Position numbers and translations under genes: made by a program. The notes below the pieces were generated by a model that was given only the letters and a program-made list of their open reading frames with translations, was not told where the DNA came from and made no database searches. From Erythrobacter insulae (GTDB lineage Bacteria; Pseudomonadota; Alphaproteobacteria; Sphingomonadales; Sphingomonadaceae), in NCBI RefSeq assembly GCF_007004095.1, contig NZ_VHJK01000001.1, positions 1,616,501 through 1,680,500 on the forward strand: DNA of 64,000 nt, given 5' to 3'. Each line of letters starts with the position of its first letter. The stretch's first letter is position 1. This document shows positions 15,530 to 21,795 of the stretch, piece by piece.

Positions 15530-16819
15530 GTGAGCAATAATGATCGGGCAGGTTTTGACCGTGCATCGCAAGATAATTTTGAGCTGATAGCGATCCGTCT
15601 TCCGGTGATCGCGACCTTTGTTGCTTTGATCGCTGGGCTGGGTTTTGGCGTGGTTCTGGCCGGGGGCGGGATCGCCCAAGGATTGCAGGATTTTATCGCT
15701 TTGGTCGGGACATTGTGGCTGCGGGCATTGCAGATGACGATCATCCCGCTCGTTGCGAGCCTGTTGGTGCTGGGTATTGCGCAAATGATCGCAGCGGCAA
15801 GAGCCGGCGCAGCGGCGGTCAAATTCTTGCTGCTGGTGTTCGGTGTGTTGATCGCGGGCGGAATTTTCACTGCATTGGTGATGCCGTTGGTCCTGCAAGC
15901 GGTTCCAATCCCCGAAGCGGCCAGCGGTTTCATGGCAGCCGTGCCCGATGACAAGCAACAGGTGCCGGGTATTCTGGACTTTGCCGCATCGCTTATCGCG
16001 CCCAACATGATTGCCGCAGCGGCGGAGACTGCGATGCTTCCGCTCACCATTTTCTTTGCGCTGTTTGCGATTGCCATCGCGAAATTGCCCGCCAATCAAA
16101 ATGCAACTATGCTTGGTTTTTTCCATGCACTTGCGAACGCCATGTTGATGATTATCGGCTGGGTCTTGTGGATCGCTCCGATCGGCGTGTTTGCGCTGGC
16201 GTTTGGGGTCGGCATGCGGAGCGGCGGCGGAGCATTCGCTGCGCTGGCACATTACATATTGATCATTTCCGCGATGGGCGGATTTATTCTGGTCTTGGCA
16301 TATGTGATTGCGTTTGCCCTTGGCGGGATCAATCCGCTTCGTTTTGCCAAAGCGATCACCCCGGCTCAGGCTGTTGCGGTATCAACGCAAAGCTCGCTCG
16401 CCAGCCTTCCCGCCATGCTCGACAGCGCGACCCGTTTGAAATTGCGGGCCGAGACAAGCGAATTCGTTTTGCCGTTGGCCGTTGCGATTTTCCGTTCGAC
16501 CAGTGTTGCGATGAATCTGGCCGTGGCGCTTTACGTTGCAGCGCTGGCTGGAATTGATGTTCCAGTTTCGTTGATGGTGGTCGGTATTCTGATCGCTGTG
16601 ATCATCAGTATCGGATCAGTGAGTTTGCCGGGGTCGATCAGCTTTGTCGTTTCGATCGGCCCGATCGCTTTGGCTATGGGTATACCGATAGAGCCGCTGG
16701 CGTTGCTCGTGGCGGTTGAAATGATACCCGACATCATGCGCACGCTGGCCAATGTCACCATGAACGTCGCCGTGGCATCAGCTGTGGATCAGGGCGGAGC
16801 GGATACAGCAACCGATTAA
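15530..16819 (+). CDS. Dicarboxylate/amino acid:cation symporter (SDF/DAACS family)
   Basis: A 429-residue membrane transporter of the sodium:dicarboxylate symporter family, with about eight membrane segments and two re-entrant hairpins. The serine-rich hairpin is seen as VSTQSSLASLPAML (about residues 285-298), equivalent to the SSxxTLP motif of GltP; the second as SIGSVSLPGSISFV. Members take up C4-dicarboxylates, glutamate or aspartate with H+ or Na+. The start codon is GTG. The stop codon overlaps that of the convergent ecfG gene (TTAA at 16816-16819), so transcripts of the two genes must run into each other. Confidence 0.88.
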   Translation: MSNNDRAGFDRASQDNFELIAIRLPVIATFVALIAGLGFGVVLAGGGIAQGLQDFIALVGTLWLRALQMTIIPLVASLLVLGIAQMIAAARAGAAAVKFLLLVFGVLIAGGIFTALVMPLVLQAVPIPEAASGFMAAVPDDKQQVPGILDFAASLIAPNMIAAAAETAMLPLTIFFALFAIAIAKLPANQNATMLGFFHALANAMLMIIGWVLWIAPIGVFALAFGVGMRSGGGAFAALAHYILIISAMGGFILVLAYVIAFALGGINPLRFAKAITPAQAVAVSTQSSLASLPAMLDSATRLKLRAETSEFVLPLAVAIFRSTSVAMNLAVALYVAALAGIDVPVSLMVVGILIAVIISIGSVSLPGSISFVVSIGPIALAMGIPIEPLALLVAVEMIPDIMRTLANVTMNVAVASAVDQGGADTATD

Positions 16820-17439
16820 CTTTTTGCTGCGGCGATCCCTCTACCGGCAGCGACTTCATCGAGTTCTTCAAGGATCGCGCGGTGCGCGGTTGCATCATCA
16901 ATCGACCGCTGGGGAATATCGCCGTCGGCCAACATTGAATTCAATGTTGCGCGGGCGCGTCCCACACGGCTTTTGATTGTACCAACTGCGCAGCCGCAAA
17001 TCTCGGCTGCTTCATCATACGAGAAACCGCCTGCACCAACGAGCAACAATGCCTCGCGGCGTTCTGGCGGCAGGGTTAGCAACGCGCGGTGCATATCGGA
17101 AAGGTGAATGGGTTCTTCCTGTCCAGCAGGCGCGGTCAGGATGCGTTCGGCGACGCCTTCATCATACTCGCCGCGGAAACGGTTGCGGCGCATATCGGTA
17201 AGATAGGCGTTGCGTAGAATGACAAAAGTCCACGCCCGCATCGATGTGCCCGGTTCAAACCGATCCTGCGCGGCCCACGCTTTCAGCATGGTTTCCTGCA
17301 CAAGATCATCGGCCATATCGGGCCGCCCGCAAAGACCGCGCGCAAACGCACGCAAATGGGGGACGACTTCGGTTAGCTCGCGCTTAAACGCTGCTCTTTC
17401 TGCCGGGGTGCGTTCTGGCAGAGGTTTTTTCTCTGCCAT
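16816..17439 (-). CDS. ecfG: General stress response ECF sigma factor EcfG
   Basis: A 207-residue ECF sigma factor. Region 2 shows DMADDLVQETMLKAW and the region 2.4 part around FVILRNAYLTDMRRNRF; region 4 shows LTLPPERREALLLVGAGGF followed by SYDEAAEICGCAVGTIKSR. It directs RNA polymerase to GGAAC-N16-CGTT promoters under stress. It is held inactive by NepR, encoded just upstream with a one-base TGATG overlap, and freed when phospho-PhyR captures NepR. One such promoter precedes nepR, so the operon should be self-activating. Confidence 0.95.
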   Translation of the reverse strand: MAEKKPLPERTPAERAAFKRELTEVVPHLRAFARGLCGRPDMADDLVQETMLKAWAAQDRFEPGTSMRAWTFVILRNAYLTDMRRNRFRGEYDEGVAERILTAPAGQEEPIHLSDMHRALLTLPPERREALLLVGAGGFSYDEAAEICGCAVGTIKSRVGRARATLNSMLADGDIPQRSIDDATAHRAILEELDEVAAGRGIAAAKS

Positions 17440-17627
17440 CAGGCTTTTTTTCCTTCGTCGGTATCGCTCTCATCGAGCTGCGCGAGCAGATCCATAAAGC
17501 TGTCTGGCAAGGGTTCATCGACAACCGAATCGTATAGCTGGCGCAAGCCGCCTGCCCAATCGGGTGTTTCACCACCGTCCGTGTCTTTGTGGGCTTCTTC
17601 GCCCTTTTCGTTATTCTTCGAAGCCAT
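17439..17627 (-). CDS. nepR: Anti-sigma factor NepR
   Basis: A 62-residue protein with the NepR core GGLRQLYDSVVDEPLPDSFM and following LLAQLDE (residues about 26-52), flanked by disordered charged ends. NepR binds EcfG in unstressed cells and swaps to PhyR when PhyR is phosphorylated. It is encoded directly before ecfG, with TGATG overlap, and has a clear EcfG-type promoter upstream. This order (nepR-ecfG, kinase, phyR) is typical of sphingomonads. Confidence 0.93.
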   Translation of the reverse strand: MASKNNEKGEEAHKDTDGGETPDWAGGLRQLYDSVVDEPLPDSFMDLLAQLDESDTDEGKKA

Positions 17628-17712: not shown

Positions 17713-17737
17713 AACGATGCGGTGTCTGTTTGGTTCC
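17713..17737 (-). promoter_or_regulatory. EcfG-type promoter of nepR-ecfG (GGAAC-N16-CGTT)
   Basis: On the minus strand GGAAC (17737-17733) is followed after exactly 16 bases by CGTT (17716-17713), the consensus of the alphaproteobacterial stress sigma factor. Transcription would begin near 17706, about 80 bases before nepR. The element is nearly mirrored: on the plus strand GGAAC at 17711-17715 is followed after 16 bases by GGTT, a weak match facing the kinase gene. Confidence 0.85.
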
Positions 17738-17758: not shown

Positions 17759-19516
17759 GTGAGCATGGACGCCAAAACAACGGATAGGCAACACGAAGGC
17801 CATGACCGGCCCGAGGGTTCCGGGGTTCGGGAAACCCCAATCGGCCCGCTTATTGGTCGGGGCCGTGTGCGCCTTTGGCTGCTCAACTACCCGCGTGCCA
17901 TTCCGCTCGCAATTTTCGCAGCCATAGCTGCCATCACCGCGCTCAGCGTTTTTTCGGTCGAGCGCAGCGAACGCGTAAGCGAAACAGCGCAGATGCGCGA
18001 ACAGGCACAGTCGATTGCTTCGGAGCTTGAGCGGCGGGGGAACAGTTTTTCTTCGTATCTTCGCGCAGGTGCCGCCCTGTTTTCCAGTGTCGACGAAGTC
18101 AGCCCAAAGGTTTTTCGCCAGTTTGTCAGCGAGCTAAGGGTCAACCTTGATTACAAAGGCGCAGAGGGGATCGGATGGATAACGGTTGTTCCCAGCGGAG
18201 GAGAGGCGGCATTTCTTGAACAGTCCCGCATGTCCCAACCTGATTTTCCAGATATCCGGCCCGAAATCGGCGCATCACCCAGGCGCACTGCGCCGGTCAC
18301 ATATTTTTCACCCGACTCCGCCCGCACCCGCGGGCTCCTTGGTCTGGACATGTACACCGATCCTGTCCGCGCCGCAGCGATGGACGAAGCAAGGCGCACT
18401 GTGCAGCCCACCGCCTCTGGCAGGGTTGAACCGATTGTTGATGGCGCAGGGTCCGGCTCTGAATTCATGATCTTCATGCCTGTCTATAACGGTGAACCCT
18501 CGCAAAGGGATATCGATGAAAGCCTCGCCGGATATGTCTACAGCCCCTTTAACGCGGCGCGTTTCCTTGATGCGGCGATCCAGCGCACGGCATCGGGCGA
18601 TTTGGATGTCCGGCTTTACGACGGCTTAGTGGACGAAGATCTCAGGCTTGCGGGGGGACACACCGAAGGGCCGATGACGCACCATATCGAAGAGACGGTG
18701 GTTATCGCCAATCGCGAATTGGTGCTTGTGGTCGAAACCGACACCACCCGCGTCCTGGCACCATTATCAATGGTGACCCTTTTGTTCGGGCTCGCGCTTG
18801 CGTCTCTTCTTATGCTGCTGGCGCGTTTGATAACGCAGCAGGCCCATGAGGATCGCGAAAGGCTCGCGTTTTACGAAGAACAGCATTCGATCCGGAATTC
18901 ACTCAGCCGCGAGCTCAATCACCGGGTCAAAAATACATTGGCGAATGTTCTATCGATCGTTTCGCTAACCCGCAGACGCGCGACCAATCTGGACGATTTT
19001 GCTGACAGTCTGGAAGGGCGCGTGCGCTCTTTATCCGCGACTCACGATCTTCTCACCGGAAGCGATTGGGGGACGACCGCTATGAGCCAGGTGATAGAGG
19101 CCGAGCTGCAGCATTTCCGCAGCAACACCGACAGTTCTTTTACGGTTGATGGACCAGCGGTTGAGCTTGCACCCAATGATGCCCTGTCATTCGGATTGGC
19201 CGTGCATGAGCTCGCAACCAACGCTGCAAAATTCGGCGCGCTCAGCACGTCCGACGGGCGAGTTGCGATCCAGTGGAGATTGATTGACGATAATCTTGTA
19301 GAGGTCGAATGGACGGAAACGGGAGGGCCAATCGTCGAACCGCCGCAAAAGCGCGGCTTTGGCCTTGATCTGATTGAGAAAATCGTCGCGCATGAGCTCA
19401 AGCAGCCCGTGGAGCTGCATTTTGACGAGACCGGCGTGCGTTGCACTTTGCGTGTTCCCGTGCGGCAGCGCAGCGCGTTTCAAATCCGTCAAACTACGGA
19501 TCAGGGCAAGGGTTGA
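17759..19516 (+). CDS. CHASE-domain sensor histidine kinase, HisKA_2 type
   Basis: A 585-residue membrane kinase. The first membrane segment is at about residues 45-65 (AIPLAIFAAIAAITALSVF). A periplasmic CHASE domain of about 250 residues follows (GIGWITVVPSGG, then the GLLGLDMYTDP motif). The second membrane segment is at about 340-365. The kinase part has the HisKA_2 phosphoacceptor ELNHRVKNTLANVLSIVSL and an ATPase domain with FGLAVHELATNAAKFGALS and GFGLDLIEKIV. HWE/HisKA_2 kinases phosphorylate PhyR-type regulators, and its position between nepR-ecfG and phyR supports that role. The start is GTG 17759 or ATG 17765. It is convergent with phyR, 6 bases apart. The ligand is unknown. Confidence 0.9.
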   Translation: MSMDAKTTDRQHEGHDRPEGSGVRETPIGPLIGRGRVRLWLLNYPRAIPLAIFAAIAAITALSVFSVERSERVSETAQMREQAQSIASELERRGNSFSSYLRAGAALFSSVDEVSPKVFRQFVSELRVNLDYKGAEGIGWITVVPSGGEAAFLEQSRMSQPDFPDIRPEIGASPRRTAPVTYFSPDSARTRGLLGLDMYTDPVRAAAMDEARRTVQPTASGRVEPIVDGAGSGSEFMIFMPVYNGEPSQRDIDESLAGYVYSPFNAARFLDAAIQRTASGDLDVRLYDGLVDEDLRLAGGHTEGPMTHHIEETVVIANRELVLVVETDTTRVLAPLSMVTLLFGLALASLLMLLARLITQQAHEDRERLAFYEEQHSIRNSLSRELNHRVKNTLANVLSIVSLTRRRATNLDDFADSLEGRVRSLSATHDLLTGSDWGTTAMSQVIEAELQHFRSNTDSSFTVDGPAVELAPNDALSFGLAVHELATNAAKFGALSTSDGRVAIQWRLIDDNLVEVEWTETGGPIVEPPQKRGFGLDLIEKIVAHELKQPVELHFDETGVRCTLRVPVRQRSAFQIRQTTDQGKG

Positions 19517-19522
19517 AAGCCC

Positions 19523-20317
19523 TCAATCAAGCGGGCGGGTGGACCCGAAAAACAAAGCCTGACTAATCGCGGCGCGCACCGTCTTTTCCTGAAATGGTTT
19601 GGTTACCAGATAGGTGGGCTCTGGCCGGTCGCCTGTAAGCAGGCGTTCCGGATACGCCGTTATAAAGATCACCGGCACCTTTGCGATGGCAAGGATATCA
19701 TCGACCGCGTCCAGTCCCGAAGATCCATCGGCAAGCTGAATGTCCGCCAGAACGAGGCCCGGCATCTTTTCTTCGACCACTTGCTGTGCCTGAGTGCGCG
19801 TTGCAGCCGTCCCGCAGATTTCATGGCCGATACCGCTGACAAGGTCTTCAAGCTGCATCGAGATAAGCGGTTCGTCTTCGATGATCAGCACCGAAGTCGC
19901 CTGTTCGCGATCGATTTCACTGACCGCTTCGGCGATGAGCGATTCGATATCGGCGACATCCATATCCATAATCTGGGCGGCTTGTGCAGGAGAAAAGTCT
20001 TCCAGCGTCGTAAGCAACAATGCCTGACGGTTGAGCGGTGTGATCGCGCCAAGCCGGGCCTGGGCACCGATTTCATGCTCACCGCTTGCTGCTGTGCCGG
20101 CATCCGCATCAAGATAGGCGCTGGCCCAGACTTTGTTGAACGCGCGGTATAGCGGAATGCGTCCACCTTCGAGCGATGCTTTCAAATCTTCATCGGCAAG
20201 CGCGGCCTCGAGCGTTGCCCGGACAAAGGCATCGCCGGTCGCCTGTGATCCAGTCAATGCGCGCGCATAGCGGCGAAGGAATGGAAGGTTTGCTGCAACT
20301 TGTTGACCTAAAGACAT
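19523..20317 (-). CDS. phyR: Stress response regulator PhyR (sigma-like domain plus receiver)
   Basis: A 264-residue anti-anti-sigma regulator. Residues 1-130 form a sigma-factor-like domain (ANLPFLRRYARALTG at the start, LTTLEDFSPAQAAQIM in the region-4-like part) that cannot bind promoters but binds NepR. Residues about 140-260 are a receiver domain with the acidic pocket LIIEDEPLIS, the phosphorylation Asp in LVLADIQLADG (about residue 195), the conserved Thr in FITAYPE and Lys in VTKPFQE. When phosphorylated, it sequesters NepR and frees EcfG. I see no clear EcfG promoter directly in front of it. Confidence 0.95.
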   Translation of the reverse strand: MSLGQQVAANLPFLRRYARALTGSQATGDAFVRATLEAALADEDLKASLEGGRIPLYRAFNKVWASAYLDADAGTAASGEHEIGAQARLGAITPLNRQALLLTTLEDFSPAQAAQIMDMDVADIESLIAEAVSEIDREQATSVLIIEDEPLISMQLEDLVSGIGHEICGTAATRTQAQQVVEEKMPGLVLADIQLADGSSGLDAVDDILAIAKVPVIFITAYPERLLTGDRPEPTYLVTKPFQEKTVRAAISQALFFGSTRPLD

Positions 20318-20501
20318 AATTTCTCGCTGTTATGAACTTGTGAGCCTAGCATAGCCTGGCCGTCGCTCAGGTCCATAGCGTGTTGAAACGCTGACGTCTC
20401 CACTCCAGATGAATTCAGGCATGAGCGGGGAGGCCCGATCTTTCAGCGTCACGTTAAAGATCGGTTCGGATCAAAAAATTCGAAAAATAATTCAAACTGC
20501 G

Positions 20502-20526
20502 GGAACCGCATCTTGGTGCGCGCATT
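20502..20526 (+). promoter_or_regulatory. EcfG-like promoter (GGAAC-N16-CATT) in front of a candidate small RNA
   Basis: GGAAC at 20502-20506 is followed after 16 bases by CATT at 20523-20526, one mismatch from CGTT. The predicted start of transcription, about 7 bases on, falls at 20533, exactly at the base of the first hairpin of the candidate RNA. Confidence 0.6.
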
Positions 20527-20532
20527 TTGCTA

Positions 20533-20619
20533 TTATCACCGCCGAGACCCCCCTCCCGTCCAAGCGGCTGGTGATACGATCCCGAAAGGCCTCCACTTTC
20601 CCAAGTGGAGGCCTTTTTT
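20533..20619 (+). ncRNA. Candidate stress-induced small RNA beside phyR
   Basis: No believable protein is encoded on the plus strand in the 320-base gap between phyR and the next gene, yet the gap holds a complete RNA gene layout. It has an EcfG-like promoter, then a hairpin TATCACC-GCCG (20534-20544) pairing with CGGC-T-GGTGATA (20565-20576) around a 20-base C-rich loop containing CCCCCCTCCCG. It ends with a perfect 14-bp terminator stem followed by six T. The loop can pair with Shine-Dalgarno sequences, as in known alphaproteobacterial CCUCC-loop small RNAs. Predicted size is about 87 bases. The gene is inferred; no family name is assigned. Confidence 0.7.
20585..20619 (+). terminator. Strong Rho-independent terminator of the small RNA
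   Basis: A perfect 14-bp stem AAAGGCCTCCACTT/AAGTGGAGGCCTTT (20585-20598 and 20603-20616) with a TCCC loop and a run of six T on the plus strand. The T-run orientation points to a plus-strand transcript, and the only one available is the small RNA. On the minus strand it could also stop read-through from the gene ending at 20638. Confidence 0.9.
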
Positions 20620-20637: not shown

Positions 20638-21795
20638 TCAGAGCGATTTTTCGTAGATCGTGTATTCCCGGTTTACCGCGCTTTGAATGGTATCAGCGAT
20701 TGCGATCATGCCCTGATTGTCTTTGAGCACCCATCCCAGCTCTCCCCGCGTCGATTCAAAAGTGCTTGCTGCATGTTTGCGGATCGCGCTGATCATCATA
20801 AATGCAAGCTGGCTGGCCATGCGAGTGTTATGCATTTCTTTCAGCACTCCCATCAACGGAACCCGCATTCCTGATCCGCGCGGTTTTTTGATCCAGCGCA
20901 GCATATGGAGCCAACCGAACGGGAAAAGTTTGCCGTTGATCTTGGCTAACGGGTCATTGATGTCCGGGAATGTGAGCATGAAAGCCACGGGTCGTCCGTC
21001 GACCTCGGCAATCATGTTCAGATCTTCGTGAATGATCGTTTTCAATTTCTTGCCGGCATAGGCGACTTCATCGGGTGTAAAAGGCACAAAGCCCCAATTG
21101 TCTGACCATGCATCGTTCAGGATCGACAAGACGATTTCGGCTTCCTCATCCCAGCGTGCTTTGCGCACGGGCCGGATATTGATCCGTTCATTGCGCTCCC
21201 CCGACTTCACGATCCGCTGGATTAGCGGTGAGAATTCCTTGCTGATATCCAGATCATAGGTGAACAAGGTTTGCGCAGCCTGATAACCTTTCGCTTCGAT
21301 CCACGCGGCATAATGTGCAGGGTGATGGCCCATCATGATCATCGGAGGGTGATCTTGGCCATGCACCAGCAATCCCGGCTCTTCCCAGATCGACAGCGAA
21401 ATGGGCCCTACGACCCGGGTCATGCCTTGGCTGCGTAGCCAAGTTTCGGCTTCTTGGATCAGAGCATGGGCGGCGCTTTCGTCTTCGGCATCGAAATATC
21501 CGAACATCCCGGTGCCCGGACCAAAGCCCTGACTGGCGGGCATTTGCAGAGCGAGCTCATCAATATGCGCTGAAATTCTGCCGACCGGAATACCTTTGCG
21601 GTAAGCAATCATGAACTGCGCGCGGGCATGCCCGAAGAATGGATTTTTGTCCGGGTTTACCAGTTCGAGCTGTTCGCTGCGCAATTGCGGCACCGAATTC
21701 GGGGTTTTAGCGGCAAAATCCCGTCCGACATCCACGAACCGAGCGCGGCCACGCTTGCCCTTGATCATCTCAATGCTTATTTGAGCGTCCGTCAC
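20638..21795 (-). CDS. GNAT-fold-like protein of unknown function (YghO-like)
   Basis: A 385-residue soluble protein that resembles the large two-domain GNAT-like proteins (E. coli YghO type) found in many proteobacteria. Visible parts are an N-terminal segment ending RGRARFVDVGRDF, a middle with RVVGPISLSIWEEPGLLV typical of this group, and a C-terminal domain with the acetyltransferase-like strands IAEVDGRPVAFMLTFPDIN. No standard Q/RxxGxG/A acetyl-CoA loop is obvious. The start is GTG at 21795; an ATG at 21768 is also possible. It is divergent from a fatty acid desaturase, which may hint at a lipid role, but this is only context. Confidence 0.75.
   Translation of the reverse strand: MTDAQISIEMIKGKRGRARFVDVGRDFAAKTPNSVPQLRSEQLELVNPDKNPFFGHARAQFMIAYRKGIPVGRISAHIDELALQMPASQGFGPGTGMFGYFDAEDESAAHALIQEAETWLRSQGMTRVVGPISLSIWEEPGLLVHGQDHPPMIMMGHHPAHYAAWIEAKGYQAAQTLFTYDLDISKEFSPLIQRIVKSGERNERINIRPVRKARWDEEAEIVLSILNDAWSDNWGFVPFTPDEVAYAGKKLKTIIHEDLNMIAEVDGRPVAFMLTFPDINDPLAKINGKLFPFGWLHMLRWIKKPRGSGMRVPLMGVLKEMHNTRMASQLAFMMISAIRKHAASTFESTRGELGWVLKDNQGMIAIADTIQSAVNREYTIYEKSL

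Follow-up and report, generated by a model that had tools for sequence, protein, structure and literature searches.

Beside phyR in the window (the whole 64,000-nucleotide stretch of Erythrobacter insulae DNA analyzed here) lies an element that is very probably a non-coding small RNA gene dependent on the sigma factor EcfG. We consider it likely that its product is a GsrN-like RNA of the Erythrobacter/Novosphingobium branch that acts in trans, with the mRNA of a fasciclin-domain protein as its proposed target. The gene anatomy, conservation, promoter, synteny, and target complementarity described below were established by comparison of genome sequences.

Anatomy of the predicted small RNA gene

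The features of the gene, in window coordinates, are:

20483..20491, plus strand: A/T-rich upstream element (enriched in A/T over -51 to -43, counted from 20534, in 101 genomes)
20502..20506, plus strand: -35 element GGAAC of the predicted EcfG promoter (101/101 genomes at -32, within 2 nt)
20523..20526, plus strand: -10 element CATT (CGTT, CGTA, GGTT, or CTTT in a few relatives)
20534..20619, plus strand: predicted small RNA, ~86 nt, non-coding (covariance model match of 108 bits)
20534..20576, plus strand: 5' hairpin with an 11-bp interrupted stem (fold; pairing across 99 distinct sequences)
20545..20564, plus strand: C-rich loop of 20 nt, AGACCCCCCTCCCGTCCAAG, predicted to be the pairing region (all 101 sequences have the core CCCCCTCCCGT)
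20585..20619, plus strand: intrinsic terminator (compensatory changes at 14/15 pairs of the helix, 99 distinct sequences)

Read directly from the window, GGAAC-N16-CATT spans 20502-20526 on the plus strand, and the position of the -10 element would set the transcription start at 20534. The 5' hairpin begins at that base and pairs TATCACC-GCCG with CGGC-T-GGTGATA around the loop, while the terminator has a perfect 14-bp stem (AAAGGCCTCCACTT / AAGTGGAGGCCTTT) closed by TCCC. The first-pass annotation had recorded the promoter pattern, hairpin, C-rich loop, and terminator, and each was found where it had been placed; its account of the terminator as a perfect 14-bp stem with six T holds for the stem, three of the six T being already paired within it. 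The gap that holds the RNA is bounded by the start of phyR (minus strand, 20317) and the end of the next gene (minus strand, 20638) and, as that annotation had also proposed, contains no credible protein reading frame. A 92-nt fold of the region gave z = -7.3, with equal stability in 0 of 200 shuffles, and an Rfam search of the RNA region returned zero matches at the gathering threshold. Taken alone, the promoter pattern is not significant, with one occurrence in 64 kb against 2.05 expected; as about two would arise by chance in this length, the promoter claim rests on the comparison with relatives.

Conservation and distribution among relatives

In a sample of 251 genomes from the GTDB family of the window, a 131-base query detected an element of 86-91 nt in 103. 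Thirty of these 103 carrier genomes served to build a covariance model, which separated carriers (57.9 to 113 bits) from weak matches (36 bits or less), with no score in between, and in a scan of 385 genomes of the class strong matches were confined to the window's family. Among the matches listed, a pattern scan placed carriers in Erythrobacter, Qipengyuania, Porphyrobacter, Altererythrobacter, Pelagerythrobacter, and Croceicoccus, with further ones in Croceibacterium, Tsuneonella, Pontixanthobacter, Aurantiacibacter, Novosphingobium, and others; the carriers are marine and freshwater bacteria.

In all 101 sequences compared, GGAAC is found at -32 relative to the base of the hairpin, give or take 2 nt. 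The -10 element reads CATT in 91, CGTT in four, CGTA in two, and GGTT and CTTT in one each, with two unmatched; a CATT/CGTT-type element is thus present in 99/101. Information content across the 101 genomes peaks at GGAAC, at the -10 element, and at the A/T-rich tract from -51 to -43, and peaks at the two boxes over a mostly unconserved spacer are, at the level of sequence, the pattern expected of a promoter. It is this retention in relatives, and not the pattern in the window alone, that makes the promoter convincing.

The 5' hairpin and its loop form the most conserved part of the RNA. The core CCCCCTCCCGT occurs in 101/101 sequences, and the two helices of the hairpin are 98.8% and 99.7% paired over 99 distinct sequences. 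Because the stem is nearly invariant it offers few compensatory changes: its second pair appears as A-U, G-U, and G-C across relatives, and in four sequences an A-U replaces the outer G-C pair of the inner helix. In the terminator, 14/15 pairs carry compensatory changes across the 99 distinct sequences. Over the whole structure we counted 175 double-change cells against 31 in shuffles, and 98.5% standard pairs against 90.9%. Conservation of the terminator alone, against which the first-pass annotation had set its reading, did not occur; GGAAC, the -10 element, the stem pairing, and the loop are all kept.

Among family genomes without a strong match, 23 were checked, of which 18 (17 genera) contain PhyR and five do not. 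As the RNA was not detected in these 18 PhyR-bearing genomes, it is no universal part of the response. We sought a gene with an EcfG promoter, a C-rich element, and a terminator beside phyR in the PhyR genomes without the RNA and found none that was convincing; EcfG-type boxes of the form GGAACC-N-TTTTTTGTTT recur beside phyR in these genomes and, by our assignment, probably front a divergent nepR-ecfG. The five include G182, a complete genome of the window's genus that gave neither a PhyR match at E 1e-20 nor the small RNA and seems to have lost the core switch of its general stress response; G007, G021, G026, and G155 likewise have neither a PhyR match nor the RNA.

The phyR locus

The neighboring genes of the stress locus are:

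19523..20317, minus strand: phyR, divergent neighbor (Pfam PhyR_sigma2, PhyR_sigma-like, and Response_reg; NCBIfam NF006623 PhyR)
17759..19516, plus strand: CHASE-HWE histidine kinase of the stress locus
17439..17627, minus strand: nepR, anti-sigma factor (Pfam NepR)
16816..17439, minus strand: ecfG sigma factor (open frame; relatives' copies beside nepR 78-93% identical)
17713..17737, minus strand: second EcfG-type promoter, GGAAC-N16-CGTT, before nepR-ecfG (same GGAAC motif at 17737)

All 100 fetched loci have phyR on the same side of the RNA and in the same orientation, and ecfG and nepR lie within 5 kb in 82/100. In the 80 named loci GGAAC is always present upstream of the RNA, and phyR is no more than 2 kb away in 71, the remaining nine being near the edge of the sequence stretch. 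The locus tie in every fetched relative and the invariant GGAAC support the earlier proposal that a small RNA gene driven by an EcfG-type promoter of its own lies beside phyR. Since nepR-ecfG is preceded by GGAAC-N16-CGTT, the RNA promoter is of a class that suits the sigma factor of the adjacent locus; the -10 of the RNA is mostly CATT, as against CGTT before nepR-ecfG, which counts against our preferred explanation. The promoter before nepR-ecfG is itself as expected for autoregulation.

The downstream gene (window 20638-21795) is common to 100/100 loci and always on the strand opposite to the RNA, which therefore is not its leader. In the window this gene (minus strand) encodes a conserved 385-aa protein with no Pfam or NCBIfam match. 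In many carriers a minus-strand gene for a receiver-domain response regulator (e.g., L071:5163-5789) lies between the RNA and the downstream gene; it is absent from the window. Where the gap between the RNA and the downstream gene is long, the longest frame is on the minus strand in 70/77, and those printed are mostly receiver-like. At L072 a Crp/Fnr-type regulator (L072:4112-4912, cNMP_binding and HTH_Crp_2) lies between phyR and the RNA, an example of loci in which phyR is ~1 kb away instead of ~0.2 kb and the RNA keeps its own promoter.

Target predictions

We scanned the start regions of 983 predicted genes, from 1.19 Mb of the 2.99 Mb genome. The fasciclin-domain gene was picked from a ranked list, and it, katG, and cysK were the only candidates followed across genomes, single candidates being traced through 20 carriers. 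The most likely target found, judging from complementarity, is the mRNA of a secreted fasciclin-domain protein encoded behind a SigK/RskA-type sigma/anti-sigma pair. The gene (G000:C1:472606-473172) follows a SigK-like sigma factor, which scores below the SigK family cut-off, and an RskA-domain anti-sigma factor, and its leader carries a short hairpin, GCAAG...CTTGC. Within the window's genus the loop of this hairpin reads CGGGAGGGG, CGGGAGGG, or ACGGGAGG; other genera have GGACGGG. The two forms represent two registers of CTTGGACGGGAGGGGGGTCTC, the complement of the RNA loop. At least seven contiguous complementary bases were found in the leaders of 23/28 carriers, which are phylogenetically non-independent, against 2.2 expected from dinucleotide shuffles; the site is absent in 5/28, including both genomes of one genus. 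For katG, cysK, phyR, ecfG, nepR, and the downstream gene, 4 to 37% of leaders hold a complement of at least 7 nt, and none of the four kinase leaders scanned does; across the leaders of seven other genes the range was 0-37%, compared with 23/28 for fasciclin. Just upstream of the hairpin is a conserved TGCATCC...CGTAACT element resembling, on visual reading, an ECF promoter, which would place the hairpin near the 5' end of the mRNA; the Shine-Dalgarno sequence of the gene is free, downstream of the hairpin. The fasciclin leader of G182, a genome lacking both phyR and the RNA, keeps the stem with a non-complementary GAAAGG as its loop, a single case; in two further genomes without the RNA the fasciclin site is missing.

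The two other candidates were rejected as conserved targets. For cysK, an 11-nt perfect complement in the window's genome is not kept in 17 orthologues. This complement, GGGAGGGGGGT, lies in the leader of the cysteine synthase-like gene at G000:C1:359607 (minus strand) and is found in the window's genome only; the gene is possibly, from its sequence, a species-specific target. For katG, detected above the family threshold in 19 of the 20 carriers examined, the 19 leaders share no conserved G-rich site; a 7-nt complement is present in 7/19, mostly as TTGGACG inside a conserved ATTAATCGATTGGAC, and the last complementary base varies. The ATTAATCGATTGGAC element is conserved upstream of katG (L380-L398), is perhaps an OxyR site, and in several genomes overlaps the RNA-loop complement with its last bases, probably by chance.

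Relationship to known small RNAs and alternative explanations

The first-pass annotation had suggested that the element would add an RNA arm to the PhyR-NepR-EcfG response; as a first such arm it is not supported, since GsrN already fills that role. GsrN of Caulobacter crescentus is a SigT-dependent RNA of ~100 nt with an exposed 5' loop of six C and a terminator, is usually encoded near ecfG-nepR-phyR in Caulobacteraceae, and activates katG by pairing with the initial 7 nt of its mRNA (Tien et al. 2018, PMC5869019). BLASTn matches to GsrN were limited to Caulobacteraceae, Erythrobacter litoralis served as an outgroup with no apparent gsrN-like gene, and GsrN-like RNAs were proposed in Rhizobiaceae and Brucella from intergenic transcription, an EcfG promoter, and locus position (PMC5869019, Figure 9). 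The latter resemble the RNA described here in C-rich 5' loop, EcfG promoter, and locus position and differ in belonging to other families. With GsrN itself our RNA shares an EcfG/SigT-type promoter, an exposed C-rich 5' loop, a terminator, proximity to the stress locus, and, as predicted here, pairing at an mRNA 5' end; GsrN proper is defined also by cleavage to a stable 5' isoform and by Hfq dependence. Given a near-consensus EcfG promoter directly upstream, the proximity of ecfG-nepR-phyR, and a C-rich 5' loop, we describe the RNA as GsrN-like, probably so by analogy in how it works, and not as an established GsrN orthologue. With it, the response's RNA arm reaches into a branch whose representative had been described as lacking an apparent GsrN-like gene. 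We found no description of the phyR-adjacent RNA in the open-access literature, and an earlier report elsewhere is possible.

That the RNA is a true orthologue of GsrN whose main job is still katG activation appears quite unlikely. Promoter class, C-rich 5' loop, similar size, and locus proximity are in common, and katG is present in nearly all carriers tested, but its leaders lack a conserved site and no sequence link to Caulobacter is established. The GsrN target sites GUCGGGGGUG and UCAAGUCGGGGC would imply a GsrN loop of about CCCCCGACUUGA, as against ACCCCCCUCCCGUCCAA here, and in the scan of 385 class genomes the covariance model matched strongly within its own family alone, Caulobacteraceae not being known to be represented among those genomes. 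In Rfam, the best weak full-length match on the strand was the Caulobacter small RNA CC1840 (RF01521), similar in its 5' C-rich hairpin and terminator, which at 27.9 bits falls short of the cut-off of 50 and had no match in 10 relatives or 372 class genomes; the alphaproteobacterial small RNA ar14 (RF02344) covers the region with a weak match of 23 bits, below its cut-off of 58.8.

A different proposal, made in the first-pass annotation, was general anti-Shine-Dalgarno repression, in which the CCUCC of the loop masks the ribosome-binding sites of many mRNAs. The loop does hold CCCUCCC, and some genes of the genome have fully complementary start regions (e.g., cgggaggggtttcatATG), but across the 983 start regions complementarity to the loop did not exceed that to shuffled versions of it (13/983 stronger than -22 kcal/mol, compared with 15-34), and the best conserved site is in a 5' hairpin upstream of a free Shine-Dalgarno sequence, which argues against masking; we regard such a role as unlikely. 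The near-invariance of the loop could also be that of a protein site, the RNA serving as a sponge that titrates an RNA-binding protein with no mRNA pairing. We judge this very improbable, since the fasciclin leader changes register (GGACGGG or CGGGAGGGG) with complementarity to the RNA loop kept, which fits base pairing better. The strong terminator in a short gap might suggest an untranslated leader, attenuator, or mere terminator for the neighboring genes, an idea barely credible for an element that has its own promoter in 101/101 sequences, faces a gene on the opposite strand in 100/100 loci, and is most conserved in its 5' hairpin and loop.

Proposed mechanism

As a GsrN-like RNA acting in trans, the element would operate as follows. 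Under stress, PhyR would remove NepR from EcfG, and the freed EcfG would start a transcript of ~86 nt at 20534. A stable 5' hairpin would display the unpaired C-rich loop, with the terminator forming the 3' end, and the loop would base-pair with G-rich loops that target mRNAs carry close to their 5' ends. At the fasciclin mRNA, such pairing may stabilize or activate the message, by analogy with GsrN on katG; this is the sign we favor, and repression may instead be the outcome of 5'-end pairing. That the gene is transcribed, that this depends on EcfG, that the RNA pairs with its targets in the cell, and which way it would regulate them are all inferred. A further proposal, which we advance tentatively as possible though somewhat less than probable, is that this undescribed family (Erythrobacteraceae and Novosphingobium) joins two sigma-factor systems through a kissing complex with the 5' hairpin of the fasciclin mRNA behind the SigK/RskA-type pair, the register shifting between genera with complementarity kept and decaying where the RNA is lost. 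One RNA loop and one mRNA hairpin with two natural registers make a sharp test case, to which the natural loss of both switch and RNA within the same genus adds.

Weak matches elsewhere in the class

Four weak class-wide matches of the covariance model were set aside. L037 and L038 resemble, on visual reading, terminators behind coding sequence, L040 is without comparable anatomy, and L039 has a C-rich hairpin without the GGAAC element. The L039 match (L039:1501-1569), from another family, consists of the hairpin (CCTGATCCCCCCCTCCCTGCAATCAGG) and a terminator with no GGAAC upstream, and is possibly a different small RNA of the CCUCC type.
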